Origin: Aquibaculum arenosum
Lineage (GTDB): Bacteria; Pseudomonadota; Alphaproteobacteria; Kiloniellales; DSM-21159
DNA length: 64,000 nt
NCBI RefSeq assembly: GCF_029222965.1
Contig: NZ_JARHUD010000004.1
Coordinates: 1-64,000, forward strand
Reading direction: 5' to 3'
The notes under the pieces are model-generated. The model made no database searches. It saw only the letters and a program-made list of their open reading frames with translations, and was not told the DNA's origin. Every line of letters starts with the position of its first letter. Within the stretch, counting starts at the first letter, position 1. Below, piece by piece: positions 21,988 through 34,746 of the stretch. Position numbers and translations under genes: made by a program.

Positions 21988-23415
21988 TCAGGCGGTCTGC
22001 TGCCGGGCGCTGAAACCGGCGGCCAGCCCCCGCAGGCCGGCCAGCAGCGGCAGGGCCGCTACGGCGACGGCGCCGATCTGCAGCAGGAAGACCACTCGGT
22101 AGGCCCCGAAATCATTGGCCCCGAATGCCTTGGCCACGGCGAAGGCAATCTCCAGCAGTTCGAGCCCTGCTTCGGTGCCGATCATGATGGCCCCGGCCGG
22201 CAGCAGCGCCAGCAGGGCGTAACGGTCGGCCTGTCGGGTCGCCGTGACCACCACGGTCGCGGTCACGAGACCCATGCCCAGACTGGTGGACAGGCGCGCA
22301 CCGATGAAGAGCCAGTCCTCCGGCACCGTCGGGTAGAAGGCGTAGCCCACGATGCCCAGAAACACGAGCGGCAGGCTGGCGGCGATCAGCGGCACTGCCA
22401 GTGCGGCGTTGCGCGCGACCAGCGCGCCGGCCAACAGCACCGCCACCGCCTGGCCCAGGGCACCGATGCTGGCTCGGTCGGCAATCAGGCTGGCGCTGCA
22501 GAGATGGCGCACCAGATAGACCGTGTCGAAGAAACCCGTGGTGGGGATCTGCAGCAGGAAGAGGCCGAGCAGGAGCAGCAGCGGGGTGTTGGGGATGCCG
22601 GTCAGCGGCTTGACCCGGCGCATGTGGCTGGCGGTGACGAGAAGCGCTCCGGCGAAAACCACGAGCGCGACCACTGTCGCCACGCTGCTCCAGCCCACCA
22701 GCGTGCCCAGGGCGGTTGCGATCTGGAAGGCCAGCACGCTGCCCACGAAAAGCAGGATGCTGCGCCGGTCCAGGGCGAGCTGTTCCGCCTGGGCGTTGCT
22801 GTCGCCGCCGGCAATGCGCCGTAGCGACGGCAGCGCCACGGCGAGATAGACCAAGGGCAGCAGGGCGAAGATCAGGAAGAAGTTGCCGATGCCGATGTCG
22901 TGGGCCGTGAACTTGACCAGCTGCGGCGTCACCAGAAAGGCGAAGGGCGTGGCAAAGGACCAGAGAGTGGTCAGCATGCCCTGGGCCTTGTCGTCCTCCA
23001 AGGAGCTGATATGGAACTGGGCGAGCGGCGCCAGCAGGCCCAGCGAGAGGCCGCCGGCAACGAAGGATAGAGCGACCCCCAGTTCGCGCACCGGCAGGCT
23101 GGGCTGGGTGTTGAACAGCATCCCGAGCCCGGCAAAGGCGGCCGCGGCCAGGACCGAGGCCAGGGCGGCCAGATAGGGCGCCCGGCGCCGAGTGATCAAC
23201 AGCGGTGCCAGGGCGAGCGCGATCACCATGCTCCCGACGATCAGCTCGACGATGAAGTTGGTGCGCTCGACCGAGATGGTGAGGAAGCTGGCGAACTCCC
23301 CCTCGGAGATGAAGAGCGTCGAGGTGATGACCGACTTGAGGCCATTGCCCAGCAGGGCGGCCATGCCGAGCCCGCCGAAGGCCAGCACTCCGAAGCCTGT
23401 TGCCCGTTGTGTCAC
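21988..23415 (-). CDS. MFS transporter
   Basis: A 475-residue membrane protein with roughly 12 hydrophobic segments in two halves. No classical sugar or drug signature is obvious; GFFDTVYLVRHLCSASLIADRASIG sits at the middle. It overlaps the GMC dehydrogenase gene by 4 nt (ATGA), so it is the last gene of the 28.1-22.0 kb operon. Its role there is inferred to be import or export of the compound oxidised by the dehydrogenase. Confidence 0.8.
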   Translation of the reverse strand: MTQRATGFGVLAFGGLGMAALLGNGLKSVITSTLFISEGEFASFLTISVERTNFIVELIVGSMVIALALAPLLITRRRAPYLAALASVLAAAAFAGLGMLFNTQPSLPVRELGVALSFVAGGLSLGLLAPLAQFHISSLEDDKAQGMLTTLWSFATPFAFLVTPQLVKFTAHDIGIGNFFLIFALLPLVYLAVALPSLRRIAGGDSNAQAEQLALDRRSILLFVGSVLAFQIATALGTLVGWSSVATVVALVVFAGALLVTASHMRRVKPLTGIPNTPLLLLLGLFLLQIPTTGFFDTVYLVRHLCSASLIADRASIGALGQAVAVLLAGALVARNAALAVPLIAASLPLVFLGIVGYAFYPTVPEDWLFIGARLSTSLGMGLVTATVVVTATRQADRYALLALLPAGAIMIGTEAGLELLEIAFAVAKAFGANDFGAYRVVFLLQIGAVAVAALPLLAGLRGLAAGFSARQQTA

Positions 23416-25007
23416 AGCCGGCGTTGCACCTCTTCAGCGGCTCGGATGGCCAAGGCAGCGACGGTGAGCGTTGGCGCGTTGACCGGCGCGGTGATGTGCG
23501 TGCTGGTGCCCAGGATGAAGAGGTTGGCGTGGTCGTGCGTCACCATCTGCGTGTCCACCACCGAGCGCGTTGGATCCTCGCCCATGCGCGTCGTGCCGCC
23601 GATGATGGCGTTGGAGAGATAGGGCTCGTTCGACTGCACCTCGGTGGCGCCCAGCGCCTCGAAGATGCGACGGTTCAGCTCTTCCGCTTCCTGCAGGCCG
23701 CGGCGGGTGTATTCGTCCATGTGGACCGTCACCTGCGGCTTCGGCACCCCGGCGCTGTCGCGCTCCTCGGCCAGCTCGACCCGGTTGTCGGGGTCGGGCA
23801 GGATTTCCGCCGAGGAGTTGAGGCGCAGATGGCGGGATACCTGCTCGGCCACCGCCCGCGCCAGCTCGGGCCCGCGCTTGCCCTCGCCAATGAGCTTCTT
23901 CGCCAACTCCGTGGCGTCGCTGTTGCCTGACCAGCCGCTGTTCATGAAGGAGGTGCCGATGGCGGCTTTTTCCCCGCGGAAATCGCCATCGCGCAGCTCG
24001 ATCAGGCCGGCGGTCTGCTGCGGCCCGCGGTAGGGGAAGACCGGCTCTTTCGTCAGGCCCCAGGTGTCCTGATTGGCCTGGGTCAGGAGATAGCGGCCCA
24101 CCACCCCGGAGGAGTTGGCCACGCCCTGGGGCGCGGCCTCCTGGGCGGAGTTGAGCAACAGGCGCGGGTTCTCGATGGCATGGCCGCAGAGCGCGAAGAT
24201 GCGGCCCTCGACCCAGAAGGTCTCCCCGTCGGGGCGGCGCACCTTCACGCGGCGGACCTGCTGTGCCTCGTCCAGTTCCATGAAGGTGACCAGCGCATCG
24301 CACTCGACCCGCGCGCCCAGGGCCTCGGCCTTCTCGGCATGCATCGAGGCATCATACTTGGCGCCGATCGGGCAGATGGGCACGCAGGTGTTGTTGCCGC
24401 AGCAGGGCGGCCGGCCGTCGAACTCCACGGAGTTGCGCGCGTGGGAGAAGGGGCCGGCGTGCAGGCCGAGCTGGTCCAGCGCCTTGATCACCTGCTGATC
24501 CATGTAGCTCATGGGCACCGGCGGTAGGGGATAGGGCTCCTCGCGCGGCGCGCCCCAGACGTGATCGGGGTCGCCGGCCACGCCCCAGCGCCGCTCCGCT
24601 TCGACATAGTAGGGCAGCAGGTCCTCGTAGCCGAGCGGCCAGTCATCGGCCACGCCGAAGCGGCTGCGCATGCGGAAGTCGTTGGGGCGCAGGCGGTCGG
24701 CGAAGCCGGTCCAGTGCCAGGTGGTGCCCCCGAAGAGCCGCAGATAGGCGCCGATGAAAGAGATCGAACCCTTCTGGACGTAGAAATCGTCGTAGCCGCC
24801 ATCCTCCGGGTGCGGGGCCGAGGGCGCGCTGGGATAGGCGGCCTGCGGTCCCTTTACCGGATTTTCGTAGAAGTGCTTCACATAGGCCGAGCGCGGGCGC
24901 CGCGGTCCGGCCTCCAGGACCAGCACGTCCATGCCCTGCTGCACCAGGGAATAGGCCAGGTGCGCCCCGGCCATCCCGGCCCCGATGATGACGACGTCGG
25001 TGCGCAT
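23412..25007 (-). CDS. GMC family FAD dehydrogenase, catalytic subunit (gluconate/glucose dehydrogenase-like)
   Basis: A 531-residue flavoprotein. The N-terminus MRTDVVIIGAGMAGAHLAY is the FAD-binding Rossmann motif. A cysteine cluster C203-x4-C208-x3-C212 (CCGNNTCVPIC) matches the spacing of the [3Fe-4S] ligands in bacterial FAD glucose dehydrogenase. The C-terminal GMC domain carries NLFILGTSTHIT. Such subunits oxidise sugars or polyols and pass electrons to a c-type cytochrome. No signal peptide: export would ride on the small subunit, whose gene overlaps by TGATG. The substrate is not deducible. Confidence 0.88.
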   Translation of the reverse strand: MRTDVVIIGAGMAGAHLAYSLVQQGMDVLVLEAGPRRPRSAYVKHFYENPVKGPQAAYPSAPSAPHPEDGGYDDFYVQKGSISFIGAYLRLFGGTTWHWTGFADRLRPNDFRMRSRFGVADDWPLGYEDLLPYYVEAERRWGVAGDPDHVWGAPREEPYPLPPVPMSYMDQQVIKALDQLGLHAGPFSHARNSVEFDGRPPCCGNNTCVPICPIGAKYDASMHAEKAEALGARVECDALVTFMELDEAQQVRRVKVRRPDGETFWVEGRIFALCGHAIENPRLLLNSAQEAAPQGVANSSGVVGRYLLTQANQDTWGLTKEPVFPYRGPQQTAGLIELRDGDFRGEKAAIGTSFMNSGWSGNSDATELAKKLIGEGKRGPELARAVAEQVSRHLRLNSSAEILPDPDNRVELAEERDSAGVPKPQVTVHMDEYTRRGLQEAEELNRRIFEALGATEVQSNEPYLSNAIIGGTTRMGEDPTRSVVDTQMVTHDHANLFILGTSTHITAPVNAPTLTVAALAIRAAEEVQRRL

Positions 25008-25504
25008 CAGACGGGCCCCTTGTTGGCTTGGGTGTTGGCGGGAGCGTCCTGCCAGTGCCCGAAGGGCATGCCGCACAAGCCTGGCGCCGTGGCGAAGCCG
25101 AGGCCCGACCAGGCCAGGGCCCAGGGATACCAGGCAACGCGGGTGGCCCCGGCCGCGGTCGTGATCTCGCCGGTGTAGAGGAAGGCCGCGATCCAGCGCA
25201 GCTGATCTTCCAGGTCGTCGTCGCTGAGCCCGTTCTGGGCGGTAGACGGCGGCCCCAGGGCGTCCAGCGGCTGCCCCGCCACGGCCTGCAGCAGCGCCGG
25301 CATGGCCTCGTCGCCGTAGTGCTTGCGAAATGCCGCGGCGCAGCCCTCGACCAGGATGTCGGGAATCGCGCTCAGACCGCCGACCGCCCGGATCACTTCG
25401 GCAAAGGCCGCATCCTCGCGCCCGCTGCCCAGCGGTCCGGCCAGCGCCCGGCTTGCCGGCAGGGCGGCGAGCGCGGCCAGCAGGCTGCGGCGGGTGACAT
25501 TCAT
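25007..25504 (-). CDS. gluconate 2-dehydrogenase subunit 3-like protein
   Basis: A 165-residue small subunit with a twin-arginine-like leader (MNVTRRSLLAALAALPASRALA). It has the family's Trp/Pro-rich C-terminus (ATRVAWYPWALAWSGLGFA, then LCGMPFGHW). It serves as Tat hitch-hiker and assembly partner of the GMC catalytic subunit. Both ends overlap neighbours: ATGA with the phytochelatin-synthase-like gene and TGATG with the GMC gene. Strong translational coupling is expected. Confidence 0.85.
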   Translation of the reverse strand: MNVTRRSLLAALAALPASRALAGPLGSGREDAAFAEVIRAVGGLSAIPDILVEGCAAAFRKHYGDEAMPALLQAVAGQPLDALGPPSTAQNGLSDDDLEDQLRWIAAFLYTGEITTAAGATRVAWYPWALAWSGLGFATAPGLCGMPFGHWQDAPANTQANKGPV

Positions 25505-26205
25505 GGCCTGCGCACCACCACGAGGCCGCGGGAGAGCCCCGAGCCACTGTCCACTGCCTGCATGGCGGCCAGCATTTCGTCCAGCGTCAGCCAGGAGGGG
25601 GGATACTTGTACTTGGCGACGTCGAGCACCAGCAGGCTGTCGCTGTCGGGATGGTAAGCGCCGATGGGCGAGACATGGCCGGCGCCGATCTGGCCGATCA
25701 CCTCGCGGGTGTAGTTGACCACCAGGCGGGCATCGGGGTCGGCCAGGGTGTCCTGGGCGATCTGGCGCAGCGCGTCCGTGTCGAGCGCATCGGCATAGTG
25801 CACCTCGGCCTCGACACCCAGGTTGGTGAGGAAGGTTCCGATCTCCTCGAGGGTCATGCCCTCGTGTTCGACCTTGGCATAGGCCTTCACCGCCTGGTTT
25901 TCCTCGGTGAAGATCGAGTCCTGGGTGAAGAGCTCGAAGGGATAGATGCGCAGCGGCTGCGGCCGCTCGACGTCCAGGCTGTTGAGCACGCCGGCCATGG
26001 TGGCCGGGGCGCAGAAGGTCTGGATGTGCTCGTACTCGAGGTAGGTGGCGAGCGCGATGTAGTCGCTGAGCGGTTTGCTGGCGAGCAGCCGCTCGTCGCC
26101 CTCCGGAGTGGTGAGATAGACCGGCTCCGCCGCCGCGGGCGCTGCCAGGACGAGCAGGGCGCCCAGCGCCGCGCCCTTGAGGGCTGCAAGAACGCTCAGT
26201 TTCAT
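25501..26205 (-). CDS. phytochelatin synthase-like cysteine peptidase, secreted
   Basis: A 234-residue papain-fold protein. Catalytic triad Cys65 (QTFCAPATMAGVLNSL), His177 (GAGHVSPIGAYHP) and Asp195 (LLVLDVAKYKYPPSW). Spacings of 112 and 18 residues fit plant and cyanobacterial phytochelatin synthases. Only the catalytic half is present, as in bacterial one-domain members that mainly cleave Gly from glutathione or its conjugates. A signal peptide (MKLSVLAALKGAALGALLVL...AAA) predicts a periplasmic location. GGAG lies 7 nt before the ATG. It sits between cytochrome c and dehydrogenase subunit genes, with 4-nt overlaps on both sides, which is unusual for this family. Confidence 0.9.
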   Translation of the reverse strand: MKLSVLAALKGAALGALLVLAAPAAAEPVYLTTPEGDERLLASKPLSDYIALATYLEYEHIQTFCAPATMAGVLNSLDVERPQPLRIYPFELFTQDSIFTEENQAVKAYAKVEHEGMTLEEIGTFLTNLGVEAEVHYADALDTDALRQIAQDTLADPDARLVVNYTREVIGQIGAGHVSPIGAYHPDSDSLLVLDVAKYKYPPSWLTLDEMLAAMQAVDSGSGLSRGLVVVRRP

Positions 26206-26525
26206 CGTTGTTCTCCAAACCATTGGGCCAGCGCCTTGATGTCCTCGTCGCTAAGGTCGGCGGCGATGCCGGACATGACCAAGGCAGGGCCGCCGTTGCG
26301 CAGCCCCTCGCGGTAGCTTTTCAGCGCGCGTTCCAGATAGGCCGGCTGCTGCCCGGCGATAATCGGTACTTCCGGCAGCACCGGACGGCCCGAAGCGCCG
26401 TGGCAAGAAAGGCAGGAAGCCGCCGCCTCCGGCATGGCGGTCGCGCTCTTGTCGTCGTCCGCCAGCGCTGTCGCTGGTGTCAGGGCCAGCAGCAGGCCGG
26501 CCAGCAGGATGCCGTGTCGCGCCAT
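26202..26525 (-). CDS. monohaem class I cytochrome c
   Basis: A 107-residue periplasmic electron carrier: signal peptide MARHGILLAGLLLALTPATALA, one haem site CLSCH, and a distal Met in GGPALVMSGIAADLSDEDIKALAQWF. It resembles c553/c4-half proteins. GAGGAG, inside the end of the multicopper oxidase gene, lies 11 nt before this ATG; a GTG at 26537 is too close to it. It probably links the GMC dehydrogenase to the multicopper oxidase or a terminal oxidase. Confidence 0.9.
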   Translation of the reverse strand: MARHGILLAGLLLALTPATALADDDKSATAMPEAAASCLSCHGASGRPVLPEVPIIAGQQPAYLERALKSYREGLRNGGPALVMSGIAADLSDEDIKALAQWFGEQR

Positions 26526-26533
26526 GGCCCCAG

Positions 26534-28063
26534 TCACTCCTCGATGTTGATGTTGAGCATCATCCCCAGGTCCTCGTGCGGCAGGATGTGGCAGTGCATG
26601 ACGAAGCGGCCTGTGAAGTCGGTGAAGCGCGTGCGGATCGTCACGGTCCCGGCAGCCGGAACGGCAATGGTGTCCTGCCAGTGCTTGTACTCTTCCGGCT
26701 CGCCGTTGATCGCCACCACCTGGAAGGGATTGACGTGGATGTGGAGGGGGTGCGGGAAGGGTGTTTCATTGATGAAGACCCATTCCTCCGCCGTATTCAG
26801 CTTCGCGACCACGTCGTCGCGCCGCGGGTCGAAGGCCTCGCCATTGATGGTGAAAGTCATGTTCTTGTACATGCCCTCGACCGTGCGCGTGCCGAGCACG
26901 AACTGCCGCTGCGCGACGATCTCATCTTCGGTGATGTCCGTGAGGATGCGGTTCTCTGGCAGGGGGCCTGAAGGAAGGGCCGTGGCCATGGGAATGGAAG
27001 AGTCGACCCGGTCGGAATCGGCCGGCAGCACGATCACATCGGCCAAATGCACCTCGGGCAGCGCCTGGATGCCCTGATTGAAGGCCGGGCGGCGGAGCTC
27101 GTAATAGCCCTCCTTCTCGGCGCGGACCATGAGGTTCACCCGGTTGCCCGGCGCCAGGTCGACCTCGGTCATCTCCTCCGGCTCGTCCAGGGGATTGCCG
27201 TCGCGGCCGATCTCCAGGATCGTCAGGCCGTCGAGCGTGAAGGGCAGGAACTGGGCGTCGCCGGCGTGCAGCACGCGCCAGTGCTGTACCTCGCCCTCGC
27301 GCAGGTAGATGCGCGGACGGTACTGGCCGTTGATGAGGAAATCGCGCTCGGCGGTGAGCTCCCAGATGGAATCCATGGATTCGATCAGTCCGCCTTCCAC
27401 AGCGATGGGCGCCTGGACCACCAGGATGCGCTCCACCGCATCGCGGACCTCCGGCACCTCGTCCAGGGTGCCGTTGACGATCATCATGCCCGCCGCCCCC
27501 GAGGCGACCTGCGCGGCGACCGAGCCGTGGCGATGCGGGTGGTACCAGTAGGTGCCCGCGGGGTGGTCGTCGGGAAGCTGCACCACGTAGTTGAAGGTCT
27601 GCCCGGGTTCGATCTCGAGATAGACGTTGTCGCTGTTGCCGCGCGGGCTGACGTGGAAGCCGTGGAAATGCAGGTTGGTGCTGTTGAAGCGGTTGGGGGT
27701 GTTCATCACCGGCGTGCCGCGGTCCGGATTGGGCGGCAGGCGGTTCTCGAGCCGGATCTCCAGAGTGTCGCCCGGGTGAACGCGCAGGGTCGGGCCCGGC
27801 AGGGCGCCGTAGTTGCGCAACTCCGTGGCGCCGCCCGGCAGGGTGACGTCCTGCAAGGCCATGCGCAGGGTGGCGCGCAGAACGCCGTCGCTGGCGTGGA
27901 TTTCCGGAGGATTGGCCAGATCGTCGGCCAGGCCGAGCGGACTTGCCGCCTCCACTGCGTCGCTACCGTCCGCGGCCGACAGGCCTCTCAAGGGATAGTA
28001 GGCAAGTCCGCCGACGGGCAACAACAGCCCGGCGGTCAATAGTCCGCGGCGTGATAAGCCCAT
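26534..28063 (-). CDS. multicopper oxidase
   Basis: A 509-residue periplasmic multicopper oxidase with a Tat signal (LSRRGLLTAGLLLPVGG). All copper motifs are present: HFHGFHVSP, WYHPHRHGS, HPLHIHVNPF and HCHILPHEDLGMM, the last giving the type 1 His-Cys-His-Met set. Relatives are CueO, CumA and laccase-like enzymes oxidising Cu(I), Mn(II) or phenols with O2. It lacks a long Met-rich insert typical of CueO. First gene of the operon with cytochrome c, phytochelatin-synthase-like and GMC genes. Confidence 0.92.
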   Translation of the reverse strand: MGLSRRGLLTAGLLLPVGGLAYYPLRGLSAADGSDAVEAASPLGLADDLANPPEIHASDGVLRATLRMALQDVTLPGGATELRNYGALPGPTLRVHPGDTLEIRLENRLPPNPDRGTPVMNTPNRFNSTNLHFHGFHVSPRGNSDNVYLEIEPGQTFNYVVQLPDDHPAGTYWYHPHRHGSVAAQVASGAAGMMIVNGTLDEVPEVRDAVERILVVQAPIAVEGGLIESMDSIWELTAERDFLINGQYRPRIYLREGEVQHWRVLHAGDAQFLPFTLDGLTILEIGRDGNPLDEPEEMTEVDLAPGNRVNLMVRAEKEGYYELRRPAFNQGIQALPEVHLADVIVLPADSDRVDSSIPMATALPSGPLPENRILTDITEDEIVAQRQFVLGTRTVEGMYKNMTFTINGEAFDPRRDDVVAKLNTAEEWVFINETPFPHPLHIHVNPFQVVAINGEPEEYKHWQDTIAVPAAGTVTIRTRFTDFTGRFVMHCHILPHEDLGMMLNINIEE

Positions 28064-28366
28064 CCCCGTCCCTTAGTATTTCGTTTTATCCGAGTGTGAG
28101 TCTTATAAGCACTAGCAATCGAGCGCAAGAGTCCAGTTGGCTGGTCTTGGCCAACCAATAGCCCACCGCCAACTTCTGTGTTTACTTTACTGAAGCGCGC
28201 CAACCAATGGTCGTGCTATGCTATGCGCCAAGCAGACGGGGGCGGCTGTTCTCACGGTTCCATCGCTGCCATCTCGCTCCTACTCGGCAGCCTGTAGCTG
28301 CAACCCGGTGCATTGAGTACAGCTTGACCGCAACAATCACCGCAAGCGCGCAGCGTGGCGTGGCTT
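28064..28366 (-). promoter_or_regulatory. intergenic leader of the multicopper oxidase operon, repeated 10-mer
   Basis: About 300 bases without a gene. The decamer GCCAACCAAT occurs twice in direct orientation, at 28150-28159 and 28199-28208 (49 bp apart), and an inverted half (GTTGGC) lies at about 28136. The region is AT-richer than its flanks. It must carry the operon promoter; the repeated 10-mer is a candidate activator or repressor site. Confidence 0.4.
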
Positions 28367-31822: not shown

Positions 31823-33058
31823 TCAGTTGTTGCGCCAGGCCTCGGGGTAGGGTTCGGTCTGGGCGGTGGCGGCTTCCGGGCCGGGGTCCGGGTGTTCCCC
31901 GGCCTCTTCCATTGGCTGCTGGTTGAAGTCCTCGCGCTGGGCCAGCTTGCGCTGATCGCTGGAGGAAACCGGCGGGGCCTGCATGTAGGCGGAGAGCAGG
32001 CGCGCCACGCCTTCCAGGGCGTGCAGGTGCGTGCGCTCATAGCCGTGGGTGGCGTCGGTGCCGAAGCAGACGATGGCAGTGCGGATGTCGTTGCCCGCCT
32101 CCAGGGCCGCTGCGGCGTCGCAGCGGTAGAAGCGGAAGACGTCGCGCACATGGGCGATGGAGTTGACCTGGGACAGCGCGATCAGCTTGCGCGTCAGGTG
32201 CCAGTCGAAGGGGCCGGAGGAATCGCGCATGCCGATGGTCACGCGCGTTTCGATCGACTCCTGCCCCGGCGCCTGGGGCGCGGTGTCGATGGCGACCATC
32301 TCGGCCACGTCCTGGTGCAGCACCGCAGAGGCGCCGACCCCAACCTCCTCGGAGATGGTGAAGAGCGGATGGCAGTCCACCGGCAGCACCACACCGGAGT
32401 CCATCACCGCCTTGACCGCTGCCAGCAGGCAGGCGACGCCGGCCTTGTCGTCCAGGTGGCGGGAATCGATGAAGCCGGCCGGCGTGACGCGTGGGTTGGC
32501 GTCCACGGCGACAAAGTCGCCCACCGCCAGGCCCAGCATCTCCAGGTCGGTGCGGGAGTAGACCTGCTCATCGAGGCGCAGTTCCACCTGGTCCCAGGTG
32601 ACCGGCTGGGTGTCGACGGCGGTGTCGAAGGCATGGCCGGACGCCAGGAGCGGGACGATGGTGCCGCTGCGCGAGCCCTGATCGGTATAGACAGTGACCC
32701 GCGCGCCCTCGGCAAAGCGGCTCGACCAGGTGCCGATGGGCGTGATGACCAGCCGACCATTGTCCTTCAGGCCGGAGACCATGGCACCGATGGTGTCCAG
32801 GTGCGCCACGATGGCCCGGTCCGGGGCGCGGCGGCTGCCCTGGATGTTGGCACGGATGGCACCGCGGCGGGTCAGTTCGTACTCGACCGCCAGGCGCTCG
32901 AGCTCCTCGCAGGTCCAGTGCACCACCTGATCCGTGTAGCCGGTGGGGCTGGGCAGCTCCAGCAGGGTGAGCATCACCTGCTGGAGGTAGTCCATGTCGA
33001 TGGGAAGGGCTTGCGGCAGGTCTCGGCTGAAGCCGGTGGGTATCTGGTGTAGGTCCAT
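31823..33058 (-). CDS. M42-like peptidase of the NAGGN operon
   Basis: A 411-residue metallopeptidase of the subfamily found in N-acetylglutaminylglutamine operons. Metal-binding segments are VAHLDTIGAMV, SRHLDDKAGVAC and TISEEVGVGAS, followed by VAIDTAPQ. The C-terminal 45 residues are hydrophilic and rich in Gln, Glu and Pro. The start lies 5 nt after the synthetase gene stop, so it is the third gene of the operon. It may process or degrade the dipeptide osmolyte; this is inference from context. Confidence 0.9.
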   Translation of the reverse strand: MDLHQIPTGFSRDLPQALPIDMDYLQQVMLTLLELPSPTGYTDQVVHWTCEELERLAVEYELTRRGAIRANIQGSRRAPDRAIVAHLDTIGAMVSGLKDNGRLVITPIGTWSSRFAEGARVTVYTDQGSRSGTIVPLLASGHAFDTAVDTQPVTWDQVELRLDEQVYSRTDLEMLGLAVGDFVAVDANPRVTPAGFIDSRHLDDKAGVACLLAAVKAVMDSGVVLPVDCHPLFTISEEVGVGASAVLHQDVAEMVAIDTAPQAPGQESIETRVTIGMRDSSGPFDWHLTRKLIALSQVNSIAHVRDVFRFYRCDAAAALEAGNDIRTAIVCFGTDATHGYERTHLHALEGVARLLSAYMQAPPVSSSDQRKLAQREDFNQQPMEEAGEHPDPGPEAATAQTEPYPEAWRNN

Positions 33059-33063
33059 GTTCC

Positions 33064-34746
33064 CTAGCTTGCCAGATGAGGGAACAGTAAGTCCATGAAG
33101 CGTTGTGCGGTGGGTGCCGGCTCGTGGTTGGCCAGCCCGGGACGCTCGTTGGCCTCGATGATCACATAGTCGCTGCCTTCAGGGCTGGGCACCAGGAAGT
33201 CGAGGCCCACCACGGGGATGTCCAGCGCCCGCGCCGCCTGGACCGCTGCCTCCTCCAGTTCGGGATGCAGCTGCTCGGTGACGTCGTGGATCGTGCCGCC
33301 GGTGTGCAGGTTCGCAGCCTTGCGCACCACCAGGGTTTCCCCCTCGGGCAGCACGGACTCCATGCTGTGGCCGGCCGCCTTGACGCAGCGCTCGGTCTCT
33401 TCGTCCAAGGGGATATGGCTTTCGCCTTGGGTGGCGGCCTCGCGGCGTCGGCTCTGCTTTTCGATCAACTGCGCCACGCTGTGCCGCCCGGTGCCGATGA
33501 CCTCCGCCGGTCGGCGCACCGCCGCAGCGACGACCTGGAAGTTGATGACGATGATGCGCAGGTCCTGGCCCTCGACGAATTGCTCGAGCAGCACGGTGTC
33601 GCAGTGCTGACGCGCGGTGGCGACGGCGGCTTCTACATCCGTCGCCCGCTGCAGGTCGACGGCCACCCCCTGGCCCTGCTCGCCGCGCAGGGGCTTGACC
33701 ACCACCCGGCCGTGCTTCTGCAGGAAAGTCGCGTTCTCCTCCGGGGTGCCCGCCTTCTGCTGCGCCGGCACCTTCAGGCCTTCACCCGCCAGGATGCGGT
33801 GCGTGACCGCCTTGTCGTCGCAGCGGCTCATGGCCACGGCGGTGGTCAGTTCCGACAGCGATTCCCGGCATACGATGGAGCGGCCGCCGTGGGTCAGGCG
33901 GAAGAAGCCGCCCTCGGCATCCAGGATCTCCACCGCGATGCCGCGGCGGCGCGCCTCGTCGACGATGATGCGGGCATAGGGATTGAGAGTCTCTTCCGGC
34001 GGCGGGCCGATGTAGAGCTTCTCGTTGATGGAGTTGCGGGTCTTGAGCGCAAAGCGCTGCACCGGATAGAAGCCCAGCTTCTCGTAAAGCGCGATGGCTT
34101 CCTTGTTGTCGTAGAGCACCGAGAGGTCGACGAAGGCCCGTCCGCGCGCCTTCAGACGCCGGGCGAGATCCAGCACAAGCGAAACACCGATGCCCGGATA
34201 GGGCGCCTGGCTGTCCACGGCCAGGCACCAGAGACTGGAGCCGCGCTCCGGATCGCCGAAGGCGGCCTCATGGTCGATGCCGGTGACCGTGCCCACAACC
34301 TCGCCGGAAGCTGCGTCGCAGGCCACCAGGTGCAGATAGCGCTCATCACCGCGGCAGGCGAGCAGGAAGTCCCGGTCGACTTCCACCATGCCGCGCCGGG
34401 CATAGCAGTGGTTGAGCGCCTCGGCGTCGGCGAGGCTTTCCAGCGGCCGGATGACGAAGGGGGGATCGCGCTCCTCCGGCAGTTCCCGGTGCAGGTCGAG
34501 GCGGTAGGTGTGGGAGGGGTCGAGGAAGATCTGCTGCGGTCGGCGCGACAGCAGCACATGCGGATCGTCCACATAGAAGGCGATGTCGCGGCGACCTTCC
34601 TCCTCGCTCAGCAGCGCGTCCAGCAGCGCTTCCCCATCGGCGAAGGTCTGGGCAAAGAGCAGCCGGCCCCAGCCACAGTCGAGAATGATGTCGCTCTGTG
34701 TCGGGGGCGGCTGATGGCGGGCGACTATTTCACTGCGCGGAAGCAT
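33064..34746 (-). CDS. ngg: N-acetylglutaminylglutamine synthetase (GNAT plus ATP-grasp)
   Basis: About 560 residues: an N-terminal GNAT acetyltransferase half (GSSLWCLAVDSQAPYPGIG, LYDNKEAIALYEKLGFYPV) fused to a C-terminal ATP-grasp half (VVVKPLRGEQGQGVAVDL, VEGQDLRIIVINFQVVAA, VIIEANERPGLANHEP). Together they make the acetylated glutamine dipeptide precursor of the osmolyte NAGGN. I chose ATG 34746 (MLPRSEIVARHQ) because GAGGAAGACGAGG lies just upstream; ATG 34770 is possible. It is preceded by asnO and followed by the M42 peptidase. Confidence 0.92.
   Translation of the reverse strand: MLPRSEIVARHQPPPTQSDIILDCGWGRLLFAQTFADGEALLDALLSEEEGRRDIAFYVDDPHVLLSRRPQQIFLDPSHTYRLDLHRELPEERDPPFVIRPLESLADAEALNHCYARRGMVEVDRDFLLACRGDERYLHLVACDAASGEVVGTVTGIDHEAAFGDPERGSSLWCLAVDSQAPYPGIGVSLVLDLARRLKARGRAFVDLSVLYDNKEAIALYEKLGFYPVQRFALKTRNSINEKLYIGPPPEETLNPYARIIVDEARRRGIAVEILDAEGGFFRLTHGGRSIVCRESLSELTTAVAMSRCDDKAVTHRILAGEGLKVPAQQKAGTPEENATFLQKHGRVVVKPLRGEQGQGVAVDLQRATDVEAAVATARQHCDTVLLEQFVEGQDLRIIVINFQVVAAAVRRPAEVIGTGRHSVAQLIEKQSRRREAATQGESHIPLDEETERCVKAAGHSMESVLPEGETLVVRKAANLHTGGTIHDVTEQLHPELEEAAVQAARALDIPVVGLDFLVPSPEGSDYVIIEANERPGLANHEPAPTAQRFMDLLFPHLAS

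Follow-up and report, generated by a model that had tools for sequence, protein, structure and literature searches.

The window (the whole stretch of 64,000 nucleotides that was analysed) carries a run of six consecutive minus-strand genes. An earlier note on this DNA had claimed this run, and all six genes were confirmed. They are listed here together with the region upstream of them.

26534..28063, minus strand: multicopper oxidase (MCO) of 509 aa, with a Tat-type signal (MGLSRRGLL)
26202..26525, minus strand: monohaem cytochrome c, c4/c554-like and predicted to be secreted, with CLSCH at positions 38-42
25501..26205, minus strand: papain-fold protein resembling phytochelatin synthase (PCS), with a Sec-type signal, the triad Cys65/His177/Asp195 and Glu59 at the oxyanion position
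25007..25504, minus strand: Tat small ('hitchhiker') subunit of a GMC dehydrogenase, 165 aa, with a conserved C-terminal Cys144
23412..25007, minus strand: GMC/FAD large subunit, with C202/C208/C212 for a [3Fe-4S] cluster, His98 for covalent FAD, Ile468/Ala511, His504 and Asn510
21988..23415, minus strand: divergent MFS-fold membrane protein of 475 aa, with an AlphaFold2 model and structure matches
28064..28366, no strand assigned: intergenic region upstream of the six-gene unit, the presumed promoter region, with a G+C content of 56% as compared to 66-68% around it

Junctions within the unit are tight. If the cytochrome starts at a GTG (26537), its gene overlaps the end of the MCO gene, stop codon included, by 4 nt; if it starts at the ATG at 26525, the two genes lie 9 nt apart (8 nt counted from the stop). 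Overlaps of 4 nt were found between the cytochrome and PCS genes (ATG at 26205), the PCS and small-subunit genes, and the GMC and MFS genes, and an overlap of 1 nt between the small-subunit and GMC genes. Residues of the PCS-like protein were counted from ATG 26205; an alternative start is ATG 26223. A 303-nt gap lies upstream of the unit; on the downstream side, the end of a convergent methylmalonyl-CoA mutase gene is 23 nt from it. These junctions and boundaries indicated that the six genes likely stand alone as a single predicted transcript.

Comparison of upstream regions yielded no regulatory motif common to the loci with this gene set (hereafter cassette loci). A sigma-70 scan gave no promoter-like site, and terminator-like sites occurred at chance level. 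When loci of the same genus were compared in search of the insertion site, synteny broke at the mutase gene's 3' end and a clean empty site was not found. Elsewhere in the window, an M42 peptidase gene (31823-33058) adjoins an ATP-grasp open reading frame (about 33508-33735; weak glutathione-synthetase-type match, 33.5 bits), an arrangement that we take to resemble genes for the osmolyte N-acetylglutaminylglutamine amide.

Distribution and inheritance of the gene set

Scanning with the window's PCS-like protein as a single query did not detect relatives in genome contigs. These were found with an alignment-based scan, which returned 22 loci from about 85,000 species genomes; no relatives were found in viral contigs. 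In 21 of these 22 loci, each fetched independently, the complete six-gene set was present in the same order and on the same strand. In the remaining, truncated locus (L028), the MCO and cytochrome genes precede the PCS gene and the contig ends about 20 bases after it. This conserved order is far beyond chance. The survey, of a kind that the earlier note had proposed, placed PCS genes of this clade beside these families, and the note's view of the PCS-like protein and the electron-transfer enzymes as one unit with export signals was borne out. As a control, 25 proteobacterial PCS loci outside the clade were inspected, none of which had cassette partners within about 1.5 kb. No description of this gene set was found in the open-access literature.

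Hosts of the 22 loci belong to several alphaproteobacterial orders and include Kiloniella, Thalassospira, Alloyangia/Salipiger, Nitratireductor, Hoeflea and Neorhizobium, as well as metagenome-assembled genomes labelled Rhizobium, Sneathiella, Rhodospirillales and Rhodobacteraceae. Beyond these 22, the set also occurs on a Salipiger plasmid, and genomes G360 and G765 add to the count; L083 likewise stands for a further genome with the fixed order. Of 63 genomes from the window's order, 11 had the PCS gene; eight of these belong to one genus and share the same neighbours. Among 385 alphaproteobacterial genomes, strong matches to the PCS-like protein, the small subunit and the GMC subunit all fell in the same four.

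From protein to protein, the six sets of pairwise distances agree closely (r 0.92-0.98; 23 loci). Flanks of the cassette loci are unlike one another, and an all-against-all comparison of open reading frames in 20-kb loci showed no recurrent neighbour beyond the six, except scattered ABC and LysR genes. Nitratireductor clusters with Alloyangia/Salipiger despite belonging to another order, a pattern that horizontal transfer would produce. Horizontal spread of a cassette that scattered alphaproteobacteria carry in one piece best explains this distribution; it forms part of an overall reading to which we assign an even chance (see below).

Catalytic centres and redox partners

The PCS-like protein matched PF05023 with 166.7 bits (cut-off 24.9), and a sequence search of solved structures returned only NsPCS entries. 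Its AlphaFold2 model (pLDDT 81) aligned with NsPCS at TM scores of 0.84/0.91. The full Cys65-His177-Asp195 triad reported earlier was recovered in the ATG-26205 numbering and is invariant across aligned cassette loci. Second-substrate residues R167, K200 and Y201 (equivalent to Arg173, Lys206 and Tyr207) are kept. D219 and R226, which presumably correspond to the gamma-Glu site of NsPCS, are also present and conserved.

One of two changes that the earlier note does not mention, the other being in the GMC subunit, lies in the oxyanion hole. Six residues before the catalytic Cys, every cassette PCS and the related L040 have Glu (Glu59 in the window), as opposed to Gln in all other PCS homologues examined, and on the PCS tree the Gln-to-Glu replacement is a single change (support 96/90). 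This position is Gln in papain, NsPCS (Gln64) and AtPCS1 (Gln50), and in AtPCS1, where it is essential, a Q50N variant is inactive (PMC3855540). The replacement may have ended peptidase activity on glutathione in the cassette PCS. In papain, the corresponding Gln19Glu change yielded an engineered nitrile hydratase that protonates a thioimidate (PMC6584820; reference 3 in PMC6843525), a parallel to Glu59 that is one of analogy. Separately, a lone Glu-type PCS gene in genome G396 (L040/L082; G396:C67, about 898-1515) contains one in-frame TAG, at the position of a Tyr in its relatives just before the catalytic Asp, and is either a pseudogene or the result of a sequencing error.

Best solved relatives of the GMC subunit were the FAD-glucose dehydrogenase of Burkholderia (414 bits) and fructose dehydrogenase (378 bits). 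In the Burkholderia enzyme (BcGDH), His476 and Asn519 form the catalytic pair, FAD is covalently bound to His105, Cys212/218/222 hold the [3Fe-4S] cluster and a bridge links Cys213 with small-subunit Cys152 (PMC6719666). Cofactor residues His98 and Cys202/208/212 of the cassette GMC align with their BcGDH counterparts and are invariant, and the inter-subunit Cys pair (GMC Cys203 and small-subunit Cys144) is retained. However, an ungapped alignment showed Ile468, Ala467 and Ala511 at the positions of His476, Asn475 and Asn519. The catalytic His/Asn pair is absent, with Ile468/Ala511 instead, from every complete cassette GMC aligned, while His504 and Asn510 are invariant. As this pattern is conserved at 59-72% identity, it does not reflect decay. 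Lacking both catalytic residues, the protein could be a non-catalytic electron relay; with the pair lost and another His conserved, however, its substrate is probably something different from a simple sugar or polyol.

The small subunit has an RR-type N-terminus, and a homologue is annotated as 'sugar dehydrogenase complex small subunit'; it had no match of its own in Pfam, NCBIfam or PHROGs. A second [3Fe-4S]-type GMC/small-subunit pair in the window's genome (G000:C12:39696-41303; L097 8381-10312) has no MCO neighbour, adjoins glycolate-oxidase-like genes and keeps the catalytic His (GAGHIIGTTRMG).

All type 1, 2 and 3 copper ligands are present in the MCO, which comprises three Cu-oxidase (cupredoxin) domains. 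Its copper motifs HFHGFH (132), HPHRH (175), HPLHIH (438) and HCHILPHEDLGM (490) are conserved across 24 sequences. The nearest solved relative was a Thermus laccase (241 bits), and the CueO score of 136 bits lay below the equivalog cut-off of 525. The 14 Met residues of the MCO are scattered and a Met-rich segment was not found. The earlier observation that a monohaem cytochrome takes the place of a triheme one applies to the whole family, as a single CxxCH occurs in 25 of 25 loci. On its own, the MFS-like protein had no Pfam match, the window's member scoring below cut-off; MFS_1 was matched weakly (E ≤ 1) by 17 of 17 family members. Best structural matches of its AlphaFold2 model (pLDDT 83, pTM 0.84) were all MFS proteins (TM about 0.66) and included EfpA, EmrB, QacA and NorC.

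GMC-MCO pairs also occur without an adjacent PCS gene. Skermanella plasmids NZ_CP086108 and NZ_CP086112 carry a small subunit-GMC-MCO triplet without PCS, cytochrome or MFS genes. In G396, small-subunit and GMC genes lie beside divergent MFS, MCO and porin genes, the catalytic pair is absent and the PCS gene is located separately. MCO-linked GMCs from the cassette, Skermanella and G396 form one clade (support 100/99), and GMCs that have no MCO neighbour, including the second copy in the window's genome, retain the catalytic His. From this clade and the shared loss, GMC-MCO pairing and loss of the catalytic pair appear to be older than the six-gene set. On the Skermanella plasmids pSM-2 and pSR-1 (L075, L076), the triplet adjoins genes for glyoxylate carboligase, hydroxypyruvate isomerase and pyruvate kinase; this PCS-free system perhaps serves a C3/C4 sugar acid. 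In G396, the gene for the porin-like outer-membrane protein (L094 12200-13402) directly follows the MFS and MCO genes, which suggests a compound that is exported or imported.

Proposed function and alternative explanations

Our preferred explanation is an O2-linked module for oxidation in the periplasm, based on flavin, haem and copper and including a PCS-like enzyme that has been repurposed, all encoded by a horizontally spread cassette; taken as a whole, we consider this reading as probable as not. The MCO, cytochrome and small subunit have Tat- or Sec-like N-termini and that of the PCS-like protein is Sec-like, which would place these proteins in the periplasm. The small subunit would take the folded FAD/[3Fe-4S] GMC subunit out via Tat. 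There, the GMC subunit would draw electrons from a periplasmic substrate and, judging from family knowledge and N-termini, pass them from FAD via the [3Fe-4S] cluster and the monohaem cytochrome c to the MCO and O2. The occurrence of GMC-MCO pairs without PCS in Skermanella makes an electron route from GMC to MCO plausible. Against the reading, transfer from cytochrome to MCO is hypothetical, and the Skermanella gene set contains no such cytochrome. With its Cys-His-Asp triad and Glu for the oxyanion Gln, the PCS-like protein would form an acyl-enzyme and make or process either the substrate or the product. This compound, most likely of the gamma-Glu-Cys (glutathione-derived) type or another thiol or acyl compound, would be moved across the inner membrane by the MFS protein; we infer both this substrate class and the transport role. 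A glutathione synthetase encoded in the host genome (248 bits) indicates that a gamma-Glu-Cys compound is available.

Catabolism of glutathione conjugates is an unlikely alternative. It would involve periplasmic removal of Gly from glutathione or its S-conjugates, oxidation of an alcohol group by the GMC subunit and transfer of electrons to the cytochrome and MCO. Retention of the triad, of the second-site Arg/Lys/Tyr and of D219/R226 is consistent with it, as is the hydrolysis of glutathione S-conjugates by other PCS enzymes (PMC3561135). However, with Glu for the oxyanion Gln in all cassette PCS and no equivalents of His476/Asn519 in the GMC subunit, neither textbook reaction is expected to proceed in the usual way. 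The pathway in the earlier note, in which a glutathione-type compound is trimmed and then oxidised, assumes ordinary PCS and GMC chemistry and lacks support in that form.

A role in handling of copper or other metals, in which the MCO oxidises Cu(I), the PCS-like protein, in which Cys65, Glu59 and His177 lie near one another, binds metal or makes thiol chelators, and the GMC subunit and cytochrome keep redox balance, has a low probability. The MCO belongs to the CueO/laccase superfamily and has all copper sites, and the PCS family is known for its association with metal-linked peptides. Nevertheless, genes for a metal exporter, a chaperone or a regulator of the metal type are absent from the conserved unit, and the metal-detoxification unit that the earlier note had offered as an alternative gains no positive support. 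The MCO lacks a Met-rich segment, the loci share no upstream motif, a Pfam scan of a few flanking genes identified no metal gene, and a complex of the FAD sugar-dehydrogenase type would have no obvious role.

Least probable is a secreted, peptide-derived compound, for which the papain-fold enzyme would form or break an amide or thioimidate bond, the GMC subunit and MCO oxidise an intermediate and the MFS protein export the product: an exporter-like MFS fold, altered catalytic centres in both enzymes and the papain Gln19Glu precedent agree with it, but the unit lacks genes for a peptide synthetase, a ligase or a precursor, and the papain analogy is built on one residue.

Comparison with known systems

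If the O2-linked oxidation module is correct, its dehydrogenase complex, with an MCO at its end, would constitute a soluble relative of biosensor enzymes that is linked to O2. In cultured Kiloniella, Thalassospira, Salipiger and Hoeflea, the cassette ties the PCS fold to a predicted chain of flavin, haem and copper electron carriers in the periplasm, and makes the role of bacterial PCS-like enzymes testable in a defined operon. Clade-wide residue changes in the PCS-like and GMC proteins suggest undescribed chemistry, and these two active-site changes yield sharp, assayable predictions. By analogy, a natural Gln-to-Glu papain-fold enzyme might act via a thioimidate or through another acyl step that does not involve a peptide. 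It would be combined, in a new kind of periplasmic oxidase pathway, with a GMC subunit that lacks its catalytic pair, uses a relocated His and passes electrons to a copper oxidase rather than to the quinone pool; we regard this specific combination as rather improbable.

By sequence, the cassette is homologous to PCS and to the glucose/fructose dehydrogenase complexes, but lacks defining features of both. Since the oxyanion Gln, the catalytic pair and the triheme subunit are missing, assigning its enzymes to either group by activity is unwarranted. With NsPCS (Alr0975, Nostoc) and PF05023 PCS, the PCS-like protein shares the fold, the Cys-His-Asp triad, the second-site Arg/Lys/Tyr and the presence of a catalytic domain only. 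It differs in having Glu for Gln64 and a conserved His114 (VEH/VDH), and in that its gene is embedded in a redox operon.

Resemblance to the glucose dehydrogenase of Burkholderia cepacia and the fructose dehydrogenase of Gluconobacter extends to large-subunit homology, the FAD-binding His, the [3Fe-4S] Cys residues, the Tat small subunit and the Cys pair. In contrast to these enzymes, the cassette GMC has Ile/Ala for His476/Asn519 plus the invariant His504, and the triheme subunit gives way to a c4/c554-like protein with one haem and to an MCO. The Skermanella triplet is closer, with a GMC that is 46-47% identical, belongs to the same clade and has lost the catalytic pair, and with an adjacent MCO and small subunit; its MCO, however, is only 37-38% identical, and it lies amid glyoxylate carboligase/tartronate-type genes. 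Bacterial laccases and CueO share with the cassette MCO the three cupredoxin domains and all copper ligands; unlike them, the cassette enzyme is devoid of a Met-rich segment and has a dehydrogenase as its operon partner.
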